Shown here piece after piece: positions 24,168 to 58,664 of a stretch of DNA of 58,664 nucleotides; the stretch's first letter is position 1, and each line of letters starts with the position of its first letter. The translations under genes were made by a program, and so were the position numbers. The notes below the pieces were generated by a model. It was not told where the DNA came from, made no database searches, and saw only the letters and a program-made list of their open reading frames with translations. Source of the DNA: Clostridia bacterium (GTDB lineage Bacteria > Bacillota > Clostridia > Christensenellales > Borkfalkiaceae); contig JAFURH010000045.1 of assembly GCA_017471945.1 (NCBI GenBank), positions 1 through 58,664 of the forward strand, written 5' to 3'.

Positions 24168-24177
24168 GGGGGGGGGG
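24168..24177. repeat. 10-G homopolymer tract
   Basis: Ten consecutive G in the 144-bp gap between the DUF3343 gene and nth, 72 nt upstream of the nth -35 box. It is a length-unstable simple repeat but outside any recognised promoter or frame. Confidence 0.8.
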
Positions 24178-24287: not shown

Positions 24288-24920
24288 ATGAAAAAATCCG
24301 ATAAAACGATCGCGCTCGAAGAGCTTCGGCGCTTATATCCCAACGCAAAACCCGCGCTTCATTATCGCACGCCGTACGAGCTTTTGGTAGCGGTGATGCT
24401 GTCGGCACAATGCACCGACGAGCGGGTGAATAAGGTCACCGCGGTACTTTTTAAAAACTATTCCACGCCCGAAAAAATGATCGCGCTTTCGGCGGAAGAG
24501 CTTTCGGGGTATATTTTTTCTTGCGGGCTGTACCGCTCCAAAGCCGAACATATCCTTTCGGCAACCAAGGATATTTTAGAACGCTTCGGCGGGGAAGTGC
24601 CCTCCACGATCGAGGATTTGAAAAGTCTGGCGGGCGTGGGGCAAAAGACGGCGAACGTCGTGTATTCGGTGGCGTTCGGCGGCGACGCGATCGCGGTAGA
24701 TACGCACGTCTTCCGCGTGAGCAACCGTTTGGGGCTTGCCAAGGGCAAAACGCCCAAGGAAGTGGAAGCGGGCTTAAATAAGTCCGTGCCGAAAGAGGAC
24801 TGGTCGAAGGCGCACCATTGGCTAATTTATCACGGAAGAAAGGTATGTAACGCCCGTAAGCCCGATTGCGAAAGCTGTACGCTGTCCGCCGTATGCGATC
24901 ACGCGAAGAAAAATAAATAA
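24288..24920 (+). CDS. nth: Endonuclease III
   Basis: Base-excision repair glycosylase/AP lyase for oxidised pyrimidines. 210 aa. Helix-hairpin-helix with GVGQKTANV carrying catalytic K120, catalytic D138 in VDTHVFR, and a 4Fe-4S cluster site at C187, C194, C197 and C203. Start codon lacks a Shine-Dalgarno and appears leaderless. A terminator-like hairpin that also carries the next gene's ribosome site follows. Confidence 0.95.
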   Translation: MKKSDKTIALEELRRLYPNAKPALHYRTPYELLVAVMLSAQCTDERVNKVTAVLFKNYSTPEKMIALSAEELSGYIFSCGLYRSKAEHILSATKDILERFGGEVPSTIEDLKSLAGVGQKTANVVYSVAFGGDAIAVDTHVFRVSNRLGLAKGKTPKEVEAGLNKSVPKEDWSKAHHWLIYHGRKVCNARKPDCESCTLSAVCDHAKKNK

Positions 24921-37932: not shown

Positions 37933-38504
37933 TACTGTATGTTTGTATTATCGTGGGTTGTATTCTTCTTTTTGCGGCGTTGAACGCGTTGGTTTTCGAT
38001 TGGAGTTTTCTTGCGGGAGTGGGTTGGACTTCGGGCGCGGTGATTGCCGTGATCTTAGTGGACGCGATCGTTGCGAGCGCGTGCAGACTATCGCCCGCCA
38101 AATGGTATAACCATAATTCGAAGATATATACGGTCGGCAGAAAGGAAAAAAATTTCTACGAAAAATTAAAGATCCGTAAGTGGAAAGACAAAATCCCCGA
38201 GATCGGGCATTTCACGGGCTTCCGCAAAAATAAACTCGACGACCCGACGAGCGTGGAATACGTGGAGCGGTTCTTGCTCGAAAGTTGTTACGGCGAAGCG
38301 GGGCATCTTTTGAGTTGCTTGTTGGGATTCGTGATAATGATCCCGTTTCCTTTCTTGCCCCGCGGCTGGTGGCTTATCTCTTTGCTCGTGGGTATCGTCA
38401 ACGTACTTATGAATTTACCGTCGTTGTTCGTGTTGCGGTACAATTCTTATAAATTGGAGATCCTTTACAAAAGAAATTTAAAACGCCAAATGCAAACGGC
38501 GTGA
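37929..38504 (+). CDS. CrtO-like glycosyl-lipid acyltransferase
   Basis: 191 aa integral membrane protein with four hydrophobic segments (about 3-18, 27-50, 126-145, 147-168). The middle conserved core includes KWKDKIPEIGHFTGFRK (near 84-100) and FLLESCYGEAGHLLS (near 116-130), the pattern of the family that acylates the glycosyl head of diaponeurosporenoate in staphyloxanthin synthesis. No carotenoid genes are here, so the likely substrate is the glycolipid made by the two upstream genes. Family call moderate. Confidence 0.75.
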   Translation: MILYVCIIVGCILLFAALNALVFDWSFLAGVGWTSGAVIAVILVDAIVASACRLSPAKWYNHNSKIYTVGRKEKNFYEKLKIRKWKDKIPEIGHFTGFRKNKLDDPTSVEYVERFLLESCYGEAGHLLSCLLGFVIMIPFPFLPRGWWLISLLVGIVNVLMNLPSLFVLRYNSYKLEILYKRNLKRQMQTA

Positions 38505-38519
38505 AGCTTTCTCCCTCTT

Positions 38520-38551
38520 CATTGCGAACGAAGTGAAGCAATCCCAAAGAC
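38520..38551. repeat. Short copy of the CATTGCGA / GCAATCCC dispersed repeat
   Basis: CATTGCGA ... GAAGCAATCCC, a partial copy of the repeat family at 56203-56340 and 58465-58664, just before the first lipoprotein gene. Confidence 0.8.
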
Positions 38552-38557
38552 CTAAGC

Positions 38558-38592
38558 AAAAAAAATCCGAGCTTCTGCTCGGATTTTTTTCT
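38558..38592 (+). terminator. Intrinsic terminator after the glycolipid genes
   Basis: AATCCGAGC and GCTCGGATT stem with a 4-nt loop, A-run before and T-run after; works in both directions. Confidence 0.9.
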
Positions 38593-38610
38593 TTATACGC
38601 CTTTAAAAAC

Positions 38611-38641
38611 TTGACAGGGGGGGGGGTGCTTATGTTACACT
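38611..38641 (+). promoter_or_regulatory. Lipoprotein promoter with a 10-G tract in the spacer
   Basis: TTGACA (38611-38616) is followed at once by ten G (38617-38626). An extended -10, TG-T-TACACT, has its hexamer at 38636-38641, giving a 19-bp spacer, and TATGTT at 38631 gives 14. Loss of two G would give the optimal 17 bp to TACACT, so slippage in the tract should tune the promoter. Confidence 0.75.
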
Positions 38642-38680
38642 ATATTTAGTATATATTTTTTACGGGAGGTTTAAGGATTT

Positions 38681-40366
38681 ATGAAAAAGAAATTCGGTTT
38701 AATAAGCTGTCTTGCGGCGACGCTCTTATCCTGTTCGTTCGTGCTCGGCGCGTGCGGCGGCGGTTCGGATAGCGCGGGAAAAAAGGACTCGTATACCATT
38801 CAGTATACGGACGACGCGGGCGTACATACCTTAGAGGTAGAGGAAGGCGCGGTGTATTCGCTCGAATCCATTCCCTATCGCTACGGCTACGAATTCACGG
38901 GGCTTTATAGCCTGGAAAAAGGCGGTACGCAATACGTGAATAGTAGCGGGGCTTCGGTAACGCCTTTCCAAGACGGTATGAACGTGGTGTTGTTCCCGCA
39001 GTTCGCTGCGAAAACGTATCAGCTCATTCTCGATTATCAAGGCGCGACCGTGACGGGTAGTCGCTCCATAGAAGTATCTTACGATTCCACGCTTTCCAAT
39101 TTGCCTACGGATTTAACGGCGGAGTATAAAACGTTTACGGGTTGGTATACTTTGCCTGAAAGCAAGGGAACGCAGATTGCCGACCGGTACGGGGTTTTGC
39201 CCACCAAAAATAAGATCAACGAAAAGAATTTCAATCTTGACGACGCGGACGGAAATATCTATCTCTACGCGGGCTTTAAGGGGATCGAATACGACGTGAC
39301 TTTGAACTTCGGAAACGGTCAAACGGAAGAGATCAAAGTAGAACACGGCACGAACGTTTCGGAAATGATCTACGACACGCGCGTGGACGGCAACGGCGTA
39401 GTCGTTTGGTCGCGTACGGAGAACGATACGGATAAATCGGACGCGGTGACGGGGAAGATCACGGGTGCTACGACTTTATACGCCGCTGAATTTGCACCCG
39501 TTTTGGAGCTCGATGAGAACGGCGGCGACGAAATAGCGTCCGTGGTGGCGAGAGCAGGCTCTACGATCACGTTGCCTACGCCCGTGAGAGAAAACTATCA
39601 ATTCGTGGAATGGCAGGATGTGAGCGGAAATACGTATAATTCAAGCGTAATGCCCGAAACGAGCGTGCAACTCAAAGCGGTTTGGCAGGCAAAACTCGTG
39701 TTCGACGAGAACGGCGGCACGGAAGTGGACGATATTTCCGCACAGGCAGGGTCGAGTTTAATCCTTCCCGTACCCGAAAGGGAGGGGTATATTTTCGCGG
39801 GCTGGTATACTGCGGATAAGACGAAGTACGAATCGACTTCAATGCCGGCGACGAGCGCTAAGCTCAAAGCGGGTTGGTATAGAGCTAAAAAGGAAACGAT
39901 TGTAAAAATTTCTTCTTCGGGAAAAGGATATAGCAAGATGACCCAAGCGGGTACTTCTAACGTATATAATGGTTTAACTGCTGGAACGTGCGAAGATGAT
40001 TATATGTCAGGATTGACGTTTAATTTTGCGGACGAATACGGACTGAAAGATGTAAACGTTACAATAGAATTTCACTTTTTAGCCCATAGAGTTGATAAGA
40101 GTTCTTCCGTTGTGCGAGATAAAATGCATTTTGAATTCTATTCGGATAAAGTCGTCAGCTCGTCTGCATTTTTGGACGATTATATTATTGATATAGATAA
40201 CGGAGATTTTCGTTCGTACACGTTTACTTTAACGTTGCCTGTTAAGAATATGATTTTTATGACGTGGTATTGTAATTTAGGCGCAAACGGATATAGCAAT
40301 AACGCTACGTTGAGAGATCTTTATTACACCATTTCTTATCCCGACACGGCGAACTTATATTTATAA
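38681..40366 (+). CDS. Surface lipoprotein with InlB-type repeats
   Basis: 561 aa. Signal peptide with lipobox LGAC (cysteine about 25), then a GGGSDSAGKKDS linker and several beta-rich repeats of the InlB B/Listeria-Bacteroides type (GYxF.GLY or GWY and Y..F.EWQD segments, between about 40 and 400). The last ~160 residues form a different domain, AT-richer in DNA. Anchored outside the cytoplasmic membrane by Lgt. Promoter has a variable G tract. Closely related to the gene at 56827 in the N-terminal 400 residues but not in the tip. Likely adhesin-like surface antigen; partner unknown. Confidence 0.88.
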   Translation: MKKKFGLISCLAATLLSCSFVLGACGGGSDSAGKKDSYTIQYTDDAGVHTLEVEEGAVYSLESIPYRYGYEFTGLYSLEKGGTQYVNSSGASVTPFQDGMNVVLFPQFAAKTYQLILDYQGATVTGSRSIEVSYDSTLSNLPTDLTAEYKTFTGWYTLPESKGTQIADRYGVLPTKNKINEKNFNLDDADGNIYLYAGFKGIEYDVTLNFGNGQTEEIKVEHGTNVSEMIYDTRVDGNGVVVWSRTENDTDKSDAVTGKITGATTLYAAEFAPVLELDENGGDEIASVVARAGSTITLPTPVRENYQFVEWQDVSGNTYNSSVMPETSVQLKAVWQAKLVFDENGGTEVDDISAQAGSSLILPVPEREGYIFAGWYTADKTKYESTSMPATSAKLKAGWYRAKKETIVKISSSGKGYSKMTQAGTSNVYNGLTAGTCEDDYMSGLTFNFADEYGLKDVNVTIEFHFLAHRVDKSSSVVRDKMHFEFYSDKVVSSSAFLDDYIIDIDNGDFRSYTFTLTLPVKNMIFMTWYCNLGANGYSNNATLRDLYYTISYPDTANLYL

Positions 40367-56202: not shown

Positions 56203-56340
56203 GGGATTGCCGCGGTCGCAAAAGCTCCCTCGCAATGACGGTGGGGTATCGTGTCATTGCGAACCCGAAGGGTGAAGCAATCCCAAGGACGACCCGTCAT
56301 TCTGAGCGAAGCGTAAGCGGAGTCGAAGAATCCCAAGGAC
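56203..56340. repeat. Dispersed palindromic repeats (CATTGCGA and CATTCTGA types)
   Basis: An inverted arrangement GGGATTGC ... CGCAATGAC and GTCATTGCG ... GCAATCCC, followed by a related GTCATTCTGAGCG ... GAATCCC unit. Related to 38520 and 58465. Looks like a REP-like element that folds at the RNA level; it flanks the lipoprotein genes. Confidence 0.8.
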
Positions 56341-56370: not shown

Positions 56371-56408
56371 AAAAAACAACGAATCGTTTCGGCGGTTCGT
56401 TGTTTTTT
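56371..56408. terminator. Bidirectional terminator overlapping the XRE stop codon
   Basis: AAAAAACAACGAA (56371-56383) pairs with TTCGTTGTTTTTT (56396-56408); T-runs on either strand. Serves the minus-strand XRE gene, whose stop lies at its right end. Confidence 0.85.
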
Positions 56409-56679
56409 AATATTTTTTTAATTCCTCTAATTGTTTTTGTATTCTGTCGATCGCTTGCACTTTCTTTTCGTTCGTGTAATAATCGTATTTAACTCTCCCA
56501 ACGAGATAGTCGATCGATACCCCGAAAAAATCGGCGAGCTTGATCAGCGCGTATGCGTCGGGTGAGGTCTTTCCCGTTTCGTAGTTGGAGATCGTCCGTT
56601 GATCTATCCCCGTCTTTTCCGCGAGATCGCTTTGCCTCAAATCCCGATCTTCCCGCAGATCCCGTATCCTGTTTTGCAT
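56407..56679 (-). CDS. XRE-family HTH regulator
   Basis: 90 aa. Cro/CI HTH (5-60) with LRQSDLAEKTGIDQRTISNY and a SIDYLVGR end, then a short helical tail (KVQAIDRIQKQLEEL). Divergent from the second lipoprotein gene across 147 bp with inverted-repeat operators, so it probably controls that gene and itself. RBS GAGGAATG. Confidence 0.87.
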   Translation of the reverse strand: MQNRIRDLREDRDLRQSDLAEKTGIDQRTISNYETGKTSPDAYALIKLADFFGVSIDYLVGRVKYDYYTNEKKVQAIDRIQKQLEELKKY

Positions 56680-56714: not shown

Positions 56715-56752
56715 TACCATATTTTTGGTAAAATAGCTTGACAAACCAAAAA
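56715..56752. promoter_or_regulatory. Inverted-repeat operators between XRE and lipoprotein genes
   Basis: TACCA-N6-TGGTA (56715-56730) overlaps the minus-strand -10 TATAAT (56716-56711) of the XRE gene. TTTTTGGT (56722-56729) and ACCAAAAA (56745-56752) form an 8-bp inverted repeat that brackets the lipoprotein -35 (56738-56743). The shared TTGGT core suggests one protein binds both. Confidence 0.55.
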
Positions 56753-56766
56753 TTATCATATATAAT
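56738..56766 (+). promoter_or_regulatory. Promoter of the second lipoprotein gene
   Basis: TTGACA (56738-56743), 17-bp spacer, TATAAT (56761-56766): a strong consensus promoter without the G tract seen before the paralogue. Confidence 0.85.
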
Positions 56767-56826: not shown

Positions 56827-58455
56827 ATGAAAAAGAAGTTCGGCTTTGCAGGTTTTGTTTTGGCGGGCGTTTTGTCTTTCTCGTTCGCGCTCGGCGCGTG
56901 CGGTGGTGGGGAAAGCGGCGAAAAAGAACCCGAAACGTATACGATCCAGTATACGGACGATACGGGCGTACATACCTTGACGGTAGAGGAGGGCGCGGTG
57001 TATTCGCTTGAAAAAATTCCCTCGCGCTACGGGTACGAGTTCAAAGGTCTTTATAATTTGGAAAAGGGCGGCGTGCGGTACGTGAACGAAAGCGGGGTTT
57101 CCGTAACGGCGTTCCAAGACGGGATCAATCTCACGCTGTATCCGCAGTTCGAAGCAAAAGAATATACGCTCGTTCTCGATTATCAAGGCGCGGAAATAAC
57201 GGGAAACCGTTCGTATACGGTTTCTTACGGGGAAACGCTTCCGAGCTTACCGACGGATTTGAGCGTAGAAGCCAAAGAGTTTGCGGGGTGGTATACCCAG
57301 CCTGAACGAAAAGGGGAACAAATCGCGGATAAACACGGCGTGTTGCCTTTGAAAAATAAACTTAACGAAAAGAATTTCGATCTTAGCGATGCAGACGGAA
57401 ATATCTGCCTTTACGCGGGTTTTCAAGGCGCGATCTACGACGTAACGTTGCATTTTTCGGACGGGCAAACGGAAGAGCTCGCGGTGGAGCACGGCACGAA
57501 AATTTCCGAGCTTATGTATGAAACGCGGGTGGACGGAAAGGGCGTAGTGGCTTGGTCTACGCAAGAAAACGACGAAGATAAATCGCATTTGGTTTCGGGG
57601 AAAATCAAAACCGATTTGGAGCTGTATGCGGCAGAATACGCGCCCGTACTTAATTTTAACACGAACGGCGGGGAAGAAATTCCGTCCGTAGTGGCAAGAG
57701 CGGGCGAAACGGTTGCGTTGCCTACGCCTGAAAAAGAAAATTATCAGTTCGTGGAATGGCAGGATAAAAGCGGGAACGCGTATACTTCAACCGTAATGCC
57801 GTCCGATAGCGTGGAATTGAAAGCGATTTGGCAAGCTATGCTCGTATTCGAGGAAAACGGCGGCACGGAAGTGAACGATATTTCCAAGCCCAAAGGGCAA
57901 AGCGTGAGCTTGCCCGAGCCTACGCGTAACGGGTATATTTTCGCGGGTTGGTACGTAGGCGAAACGGGATACTCGTCAACGGCAATGCCGAGCGAAAGCG
58001 TGGTGTTACAAGCGGGTTGGTATCAAGTCCGTACGGAAACGGTGATTGTGGTCAAAGCGGATGAAACAGTGGTGTTTGGCTATGAAGGTTCACTTACAAC
58101 AAAAAACGCTTTAACGATTGATTGCACAAGCTTTTTACCTAATAATTTTAATGGAGAAATTCATATAGATATGCATTTTAAATTAAGTTTTAAGTATGCA
58201 AGCTTGACAGAATCTCATATATTACAATTAAAGTTTTATAGTCAGCCTATTATTAGTGCTTCAAATTTGTTAATAGAAAAGGACTGTGATATTAAATCAA
58301 CGGAATTTGTAGAATATACACATAACCAAACTTTAACGATGGAAGGGAACGTAATTTATGGAGCGGTTCGTTGGCCGTATGGCGATCATTCGGGTTTAAG
58401 TGATTTCTACGTGAATATTTCTTTCCCTGATACGACGAACGTGATTTTTGATTGA
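56827..58455 (+). CDS. Surface lipoprotein with InlB-type repeats, paralogue
   Basis: 542 aa. Signal peptide with lipobox LGAC (near 22-25), GGGESGEKEP linker and the same InlB-like repeats as the gene at 38681, about two-thirds identical over the first 400 residues. The last ~140 residues diverge strongly and their DNA is clearly AT-richer than the rest of the gene, though both tips keep an FYS ... SAS ... L.D.Y..ISFPDT.N end pattern. RBS TTGGAGG. Membrane-anchored surface antigen or adhesin; ligand unknown. Confidence 0.88.
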   Translation: MKKKFGFAGFVLAGVLSFSFALGACGGGESGEKEPETYTIQYTDDTGVHTLTVEEGAVYSLEKIPSRYGYEFKGLYNLEKGGVRYVNESGVSVTAFQDGINLTLYPQFEAKEYTLVLDYQGAEITGNRSYTVSYGETLPSLPTDLSVEAKEFAGWYTQPERKGEQIADKHGVLPLKNKLNEKNFDLSDADGNICLYAGFQGAIYDVTLHFSDGQTEELAVEHGTKISELMYETRVDGKGVVAWSTQENDEDKSHLVSGKIKTDLELYAAEYAPVLNFNTNGGEEIPSVVARAGETVALPTPEKENYQFVEWQDKSGNAYTSTVMPSDSVELKAIWQAMLVFEENGGTEVNDISKPKGQSVSLPEPTRNGYIFAGWYVGETGYSSTAMPSESVVLQAGWYQVRTETVIVVKADETVVFGYEGSLTTKNALTIDCTSFLPNNFNGEIHIDMHFKLSFKYASLTESHILQLKFYSQPIISASNLLIEKDCDIKSTEFVEYTHNQTLTMEGNVIYGAVRWPYGDHSGLSDFYVNISFPDTTNVIFD

Positions 58456-58464
58456 AAGGTTGAA

Positions 58465-58664
58465 GGGATTGCCGCGCTACACTTCGTTTCGCTCGCAATG
58501 ACATATACGCCGTCATTGCGAGAACTGAAAGGACGAAGCAATCCCAAAGACTTTACGGATTAAATAATTAGGGATTGCCGCGCTACACTTCGTTTCGCTC
58601 GCAATGACATATACGCTGTCATTGCGAGGACTGAAAGGACGAAGCAATCCCAAAGACTTTACGA
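58465..58664. repeat. Tandem 106-bp repeats, cut by the window end
   Basis: Two units starting at 58465 and 58571, nearly identical (three differences seen). Each has inverted arms GGGATTGC/GCAATCCC and CGCAATGAC/GTCATTGCG. The second unit runs to the window end at 94 of 106 bp. Same repeat family as 38520 and 56203; no CRISPR-like spacers. Confidence 0.85.

Follow-up and report, generated by a model that had tools for sequence, protein, structure and literature searches.

The window, by which we mean the whole 58,664-nt stretch of DNA that was analysed, corresponds to contig C86 in an assembly of 2.04 Mb, which is 79% complete and comprises 94 contigs. It carries a gene whose 561-aa product matches the Pfam families Flg_new (1.8e-29) and Flg_new_2 (1.4e-6), the Listeria-Bacteroides or InlB B-type repeats. 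A signal peptide and an LGAC lipobox were recognised by eye at the N-terminus, and the protein is accordingly treated here as a lipoprotein with a predicted surface location. A paralogue lies further along the same strand. The features of both loci are collected in Table 1.

Table 1. Features of the lipoprotein locus and of its paralogue in the window
Feature	Positions	Strand	Basis or remark
Hairpin ATCCGAGC-TTCT-GCTCGGAT plus a T run, putative terminator for the gene upstream	38565..38590	+	by eye
-35 hexamer TTGACA	38611..38616	+	sequence
G10 tract in spacer, proposed slippage switch	38617..38626	+	sequence; recurrence in assembly and clade
Alternative -10 TATGTT	38631..38636	+	spacer 14; 2 mismatches to TATAAT
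Extended -10 TGTTACACT, preferred candidate	38633..38641	+	spacer 19; 2 mismatches to TATAAT, plus TG
Third -10 candidate TATATT	38641..38646	+	spacer 24; 1 mismatch to TATAAT, far from optimum
Ribosome-binding-like GGGAGG	38664..38669	+	sequence
Predicted surface lipoprotein gene, 561 aa, InlB-type repeats	38681..40366	+	ATG 38681; Pfam; lipobox by eye
Ordinary promoter of paralogue, TTGACA-17-TATAAT, without G tract	56738..56766	+	promoter pattern search
Paralogue, 57% identical	56827..58455	+	sequence comparison

The promoter of the lipoprotein gene

From 38611 to 38641 the sequence runs TTGACA, ten G, TGCTTATGT and TACACT (38636-38641), the last preceded by TG-T and thus an extended -10. 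The initial annotation had described this arrangement, with TACACT at 19 bp and TATGTT at 14 bp from the -35 hexamer, and its coordinates proved exact; TATATT is an additional hexamer beyond the two it had named. Its arithmetic holds as well, in that removal of two G brings TACACT, and addition of three G brings TATGTT, to a spacer of 17 bp. Altogether the -10 of this promoter is weak and ambiguous. A promoter scan of 38480-38720 as assembled found none with a spacer of 16-18 bp, so that the assembled tract length is off-optimum, and the G10 tract appears to lie within the sole evident promoter of the lipoprotein gene. An automated terminator scan of the locus returned nothing, the hairpin seen by eye included.

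The paralogue has a normal 17-bp promoter, as had been noted. Upstream of four close relatives in the genus (L081-L084, from G027, G038, G004 and, as a partial match, G036) we found no such G tract, and the tract-bearing promoter is therefore known only from the copy at 38681. The promoter of the G027 relative (L081) is of the same kind as that of the paralogue, with a 17-bp spacer. Adjoining the paralogue is a small divergent gene (56407-56679, minus strand) that by eye resembles a helix-turn-helix regulator, and the palindrome-like ACTAAAATATTAGTA follows the promoter of the paralogue; L081 is arranged alike, so this copy may be under conventional regulation. Separately, a repeat of about 33 bases (ATTGCGA...GAAGCAATCCCAAAGAC) occurs at 38519-38551, 56254-56290 and 58470-58664 and recurs across the assembly, with 25 copies among the 27 matches listed.

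Long G tracts in the assembly

Runs of exactly four, five and six G occur 167, 25 and 2 times in the window, and the only longer ones are two of ten. Six overlapping G8 matches compare with a mean of 1.78 in dinucleotide shuffles, 3 of 100 of which reach six. Thus, the abundance of G8 in the window alone is mildly unusual; the placement of long tracts inside promoters is far from chance. In the assembly as a whole we counted 17 G/C runs of at least 8 (one of 8, three of 9, seven of 10, four of 11 and two of 12), and eight of these fall between promoter-like hexamers that carry no more than one mismatch each and stand 13-24 bp apart, against a mean of 0.32 when the flanks were shuffled and no instance of eight in 4000 trials. 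The promoter in the window enters this count through TATATT; without it the count is seven. If the -10 may carry two mismatches, 9 of 17 lie in spacers, where the shuffles gave 1.2 on average (0 of 1000 trials).

The eight spacer tracts are found on C2, C27 (with C on the coding strand), C37, C47, C65 (two), C92 and in the window, and the spacers of the other six on the G strand measure 19-22, all above 18. Judged from their N-terminal sequences, the genes behind the tracts of C27, C37, C47, C65 (both) and C92 have the look of lipoproteins or secreted proteins; the C37 and C47 products contain BspA-type leucine-rich repeats by Pfam. The gene after the C2 tract is one that we take to encode a GtrA-like membrane protein. 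The earlier expectation that only one member would vary stands for the pair of paralogues, but tracts are carried by seven other promoters in the assembly.

Distribution of the promoter architecture

Using a strict pattern (TTGACA, 0-8 bases, G8 or longer, 2-14 bases, TATAAT), we obtained 27 matches, spread over 13 of the 57 genus genomes. The same pattern was present in 95 of 398 genomes of the family, in 35 of 296 drawn from the order and in 4 of 391 drawn from the class, three of the last belonging to the family and one to the same order. It was absent from all 372 Clostridia sampled outside the order, and a reversed-pattern control gave no match in the genus, family, order or class searches. 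Within the order sample the matches were confined to six families: f1 (8 of 23), f112 (12 of 21), f101 (9 of 21), and f2, f6 and f99 with 3, 2 and 1 genomes, respectively; the remaining families of that sample had none.

The family, which we take to be Borkfalkiaceae, includes Candidatus Borkfalkia, since a match of G061, flanks included, is identical to DXFD01000089.1 (Candidatus Borkfalkia faecigallinarum); NCBI places Candidatus Borkfalkia in Christensenellales. A scan of named genomes also turned up promoters of this architecture with G9 or longer in unrelated lineages (L190-L308), the carriers among the matches listed including rabbit-gut Bacilli assemblies, Candidatus Ancillula, Helicobacter labacensis, Treponema ruminis, Streptobacillus notomytis and Chloroflexi.

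Spacer length in short- and long-tract promoters

If a long tract slips, spacer length is expected to be released from its optimum. Across the 57 genus genomes, spacer tract lengths were bimodal, with 41 G5, 8 G6, 1 G7, 3 G8, 2 G9, 12 G10, 7 G11 and 7 G12 (83 matches were counted for tracts and spacers, the nested second reports of G017 and G053 having been dropped). The spacer was 17-18 bp in 47 of the 49 promoters with G5-6, whereas in those with G9 or longer it ranged from 15 to 29 and fell at 16-18 in only 9 of 30 (Levene p 7e-7, this and the other p-values overstating independence because the genomes share ancestry). For comparison, 88 of 96 tract-free hexamer pairs of the source assembly, from the 100 of 110 matches listed, lie at 16-18. 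The spacer of 29 is that of the C2 promoter, in which a nearer TATCAT gives 19, and a nearer -10 may likewise account for the spacer of 25 in G005.

A further 133 promoters of the family had the tract 0-8 bases after the -35 and 0-13 before the -10, with spacers of 13-27. Were the spacer fixed, the length of the tract and that of the rest of the spacer would have to be negatively correlated; the two were uncorrelated (rho -0.12, p 0.18). These 133 are a subset of 150 listed matches from outside the genus, from which 17 repeated or near-identical copies were dropped: one each from G198 (spacer 14), G209 (19) and G235 (18), four from G247 (all 15), eight from G250 (all 15) and both G214 rows (19 and 17).

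A dip at the optimum itself is suggestive only. Spacers of 16, 17, 18 and 19 number 30, 11, 20 and 23 in the family set and 20, 8, 14 and 24 in a multi-lineage set, giving one-sided, uncorrected p-values of 0.006 and 0.03 for the dip at 17. It persists in the de-duplicated multi-lineage set (15, 7 and 13 at 16, 17 and 18) and is absent from the smaller de-duplicated set of fetched family loci (7, 7 and 8).

Products and strand bias

Downstream of long tracts in the genus, 20 of 26 genes have a signal-peptide-like start by a home-made hydrophobicity rule, compared with 14 of the 39 controls with short tracts (p 0.002). With look-alike N-termini removed the figures are 16 of 22 and 14 of 33 (p 0.03). 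A signal-peptide-like or transmembrane start was also found in 27 of 39 family long-tract genes, and all long-tract genes together differ from the controls at p 0.0004. The controls derive from 40 fetched loci of the 49 G5-6 promoters, and the comparison drops L073, for which the site of L077 had been taken, as well as L127 and L172, which have no open frame. Long-tract genes thus appear from their predicted products to be enriched for secreted proteins or lipoproteins. Some are not of the secreted type; L056, L177 and L181 presumably encode ABC-transporter-like ATPases.

The tracts also favour G on the coding strand. In the 57 genus genomes there were 2 spacer matches to C8 or longer against 27 for G8 or longer, and long and short tracts numbered 33 and 49 for G and 2 and 21 for C (p 0.005). 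Spacer length by itself does not account for this bias. As to a cause of the long tracts, there is no obvious loss of mismatch repair, mutS1 being present in the source assembly; a match was found in 49 of the 57 genus genomes and lay above the cut-off in 43, the source assembly among them, and in 12 of 12 of high quality.

Tract length among similar copies

Some near-identical copies of these promoters differ by one G. The same gene in two genomes (L156 and L157) has G8 in one and G9 in the other, with one substitution in 170 flanking bases and three over a longer stretch. The tandem paralogues L152 and L153 have G10 and G9, L203 and L267 of one named genome G11 and G10, and L309 and L310 of G521 G11 and G12. 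Three paralogues in G017 carry G17, G12 and G10 with spacers of 24, 19 and 17, respectively; the N-terminus of the one tested (L068) matches Pfam Peptidase_M73 (camelysin).

The initial annotation had proposed that tract length be compared across related genomes. Of 51 similar promoter pairs listed, 6 were one locus reported twice and were excluded; the remaining 45, which are not independent, differ in tract length in 11 cases and agree in 34, and the four close relatives of the lipoprotein gene have no such tract upstream. G247, with G9 and a spacer of 15 throughout, and G250, with G8 and a spacer of 15 throughout, account for many of the equal pairs. G9 and a spacer of 15 are also shared by the orthologues L171, L175 and L178, which come from three species. 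Alleles shorter than G8 lie below the floor of the search and would be hidden. Such constancy could reflect either a narrow equilibrium length, as the tprL tracts cited below would suggest, or a maintained element. G250 has 18 long-tract promoter matches, the ten listed being all G8 with spacer 15, and the five of its loci that were fetched (L165-L169) hold closely similar lipoprotein genes behind a promoter cassette of constant length.

A probable slippage switch and its precedents

The initial annotation had inferred that the gene is switched by slippage, and comparison lends this support: the bimodal tract lengths, the release of the spacer only with a long tract, the placement in promoters of mostly secreted or surface proteins, the one-G differences and the restriction to some clades all point to slippage switching. 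We consider the G10 tract probably a phase-variation switch of the lipoprotein gene. The case for a random on/off switch is strengthened by the presence of runs of the same kind in other promoters of related bacteria, most of them before surface-protein genes. Counting against it are the 34 pairs of equal tract length, the tract-free promoters of the four close relatives, the weak -10, the presence of mutS1 and the preference for G over C, which exceeds what spacer length can account for. Replication slippage would add or remove G in the tract, and each gain or loss would alter the distance from -35 to -10 and with it how strong the gene's sole evident promoter is. With the seven other spacer tracts of the assembly standing mostly before secreted or lipoproteins, the gene would be one of a set, and the cells of one population would then display random combinations of surface proteins.

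If 17 bp is optimal, TACACT would be served best by 8 G, and the assembled 10 G would be weak. The porA promoter is reportedly stronger with an 18-bp than with a 17-bp spacer, and the effective length of a spacer may be altered where the DNA is G-rich; a specific ON length is not assignable from sequence. Slippage and its rate are our inference, as are 8 G as an ON length under the 17-bp rule, an effect on protein level, and a benefit in dealing with host immunity or phage.

This type of mechanism has precedents, and the notable part here is its clade-wide repertoire in gut Clostridia, for which we found no parallel in the literature searched. Promoter-homopolymer phase variation is best described in pathogens, for example Neisseria and Treponema. 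The poly-G of porA reportedly lies between -35 and -10 (van der Ende, in 1995). As in promoters of the porA, tp0126 and fetA type, a homopolymer of at least about 8 separates the hexamers at the present locus (TTGACA-G10-TACACT, spacer 19), and a near-optimal spacer is within a gain or loss of a few units.

The accessible part of one source gives measured dependence on tract length for porA, tp0126 and tprL, with the tp0126 poly-G between -35 and -10 and best transcription at 17 nt, and with tprL tracts mostly of 9 G in vivo (PMC7864442). On that basis the locus resembles porA of Neisseria meningitidis in having a G tract between the hexamers and a spacer whose length would govern transcription of a surface protein, here a predicted one, and differs in that porA is a single pathogen locus with a measured effect, whereas here many loci of an uncultured gut Clostridium are known from sequence. 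As in tp0126 and tprL of Treponema pallidum, a poly-G lies in the promoter, in tp0126 likewise between -35 and -10; those genes, however, encode spirochaete outer-membrane proteins, and the length spread of tprL was measured within isolates.

The fetA promoter of Neisseria gonorrhoeae has a poly-C between -10 and -35 with tract-length dependence, according to the part of the source available (PMC5320596). It shares the homopolymer in the spacer, but has C on the coding strand, where C tracts are rare in the genus studied here. In Bifidobacterium breve, like the present organism a Gram-positive gut commensal, pili are described in the available text as switched by replication slippage at a G tract (PMC9187656); slippage at a G tract affecting a surface structure is what we propose here, but the B. 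breve tract lies inside the gene and ours in the promoter. Helicobacter canadensis likewise has several tract-linked genes in one genome, five of them possibly promoter-associated, with length ranges in reads (PMC2823697, as far as its accessible part goes); its candidates are mostly inside genes, whereas 8 of 17 tracts here are in promoter spacers. The tracts analysed in the accessible part of PMC2831843 are within coding genes. In a search covering mostly papers free of subscription, we found none joining Borkfalkia or Christensenellales with phase variation, none joining Lachnospiraceae, homopolymeric tracts and phase variation, and none on promoter homopolymers of gut Clostridia.

A broader proposition can be put forward, though we think it rather doubtful: several families of gut Clostridia, all of one order, would have built a promoter-spacer repertoire in which long coding-strand G tracts, rarely C, lie to both sides of the 17-bp optimum and off it. 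Surface genes would then be mostly OFF or low, with ON only a slip or two away, and a feature peculiar to the clade would favour G on that strand. If switching is real clade-wide in these uncultured bacteria, commensals would vary their surface at random as pathogens such as Neisseria do, with a bearing on immune recognition, phage resistance and strain-level gut function.

Alternative explanations

The foremost alternative, which we regard as improbable, is a fixed regulatory poly-G of maintained length, acting as a protein-binding site, as a stiff segment that sets promoter strength, or as a long spacer of the MerR type with an untwisting activator. The sets of constant length and spacer from G250, G247 and the L171/L175/L178 orthologues would suit such an element, as would the strong preference for G on the coding strand. 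Position and spacing are constant, however, only within some paralogue or orthologue sets; the offsets and spacers of the 133 family promoters range too widely for a fixed site, a difference of one G separates some near-identical copies, and inspection by eye around the tract revealed no operator-like dyad.

A neutral mutational bias, by which G runs grow through slippage with no regulatory role, would by itself produce varying lengths, and 9 of the 17 long runs of the assembly do lie outside recognised promoter spacers. Yet the placement in spacers far exceeds that with shuffled flanks, secreted products are over-represented among the genes behind the tracts, and even a neutral tract at this place alters the spacer and would hardly be without effect, which makes this reading highly unlikely. 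An artefact of homopolymer assembly or sequencing is scarcely credible: many of the genomes are metagenome assemblies in which homopolymer lengths may err by at least one base, so that single one-G differences between assemblies carry little weight, but the tracts are internal, with promoter elements and a gene on their flanks, and their occurrence in the family and absence from Clostridia outside the order come with a strand bias.

Other G runs

Beside the proposed switch of the lipoprotein gene, the window holds a second G10 run at 24168-24177, flanked by GGC and TTCCCGCC; the gene that it precedes, at 24288, looks to us like endonuclease III, and the run is outside any recognised promoter spacer. 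Elsewhere, a G/C run of 10 (L043:1111-1120) lies within the 3' end of a minus-strand open frame (1095-1886) and is a candidate for C-terminal frame switching. Two further runs stand just upstream of, and outside, promoters with 17-bp spacers, namely a G10 before TTGACG-17-TATAAT (L040:2617-2626) and a G9 before TTGACG-17-TATACT (L049:2882-2890), possibly another route by which a tract could modulate transcription.
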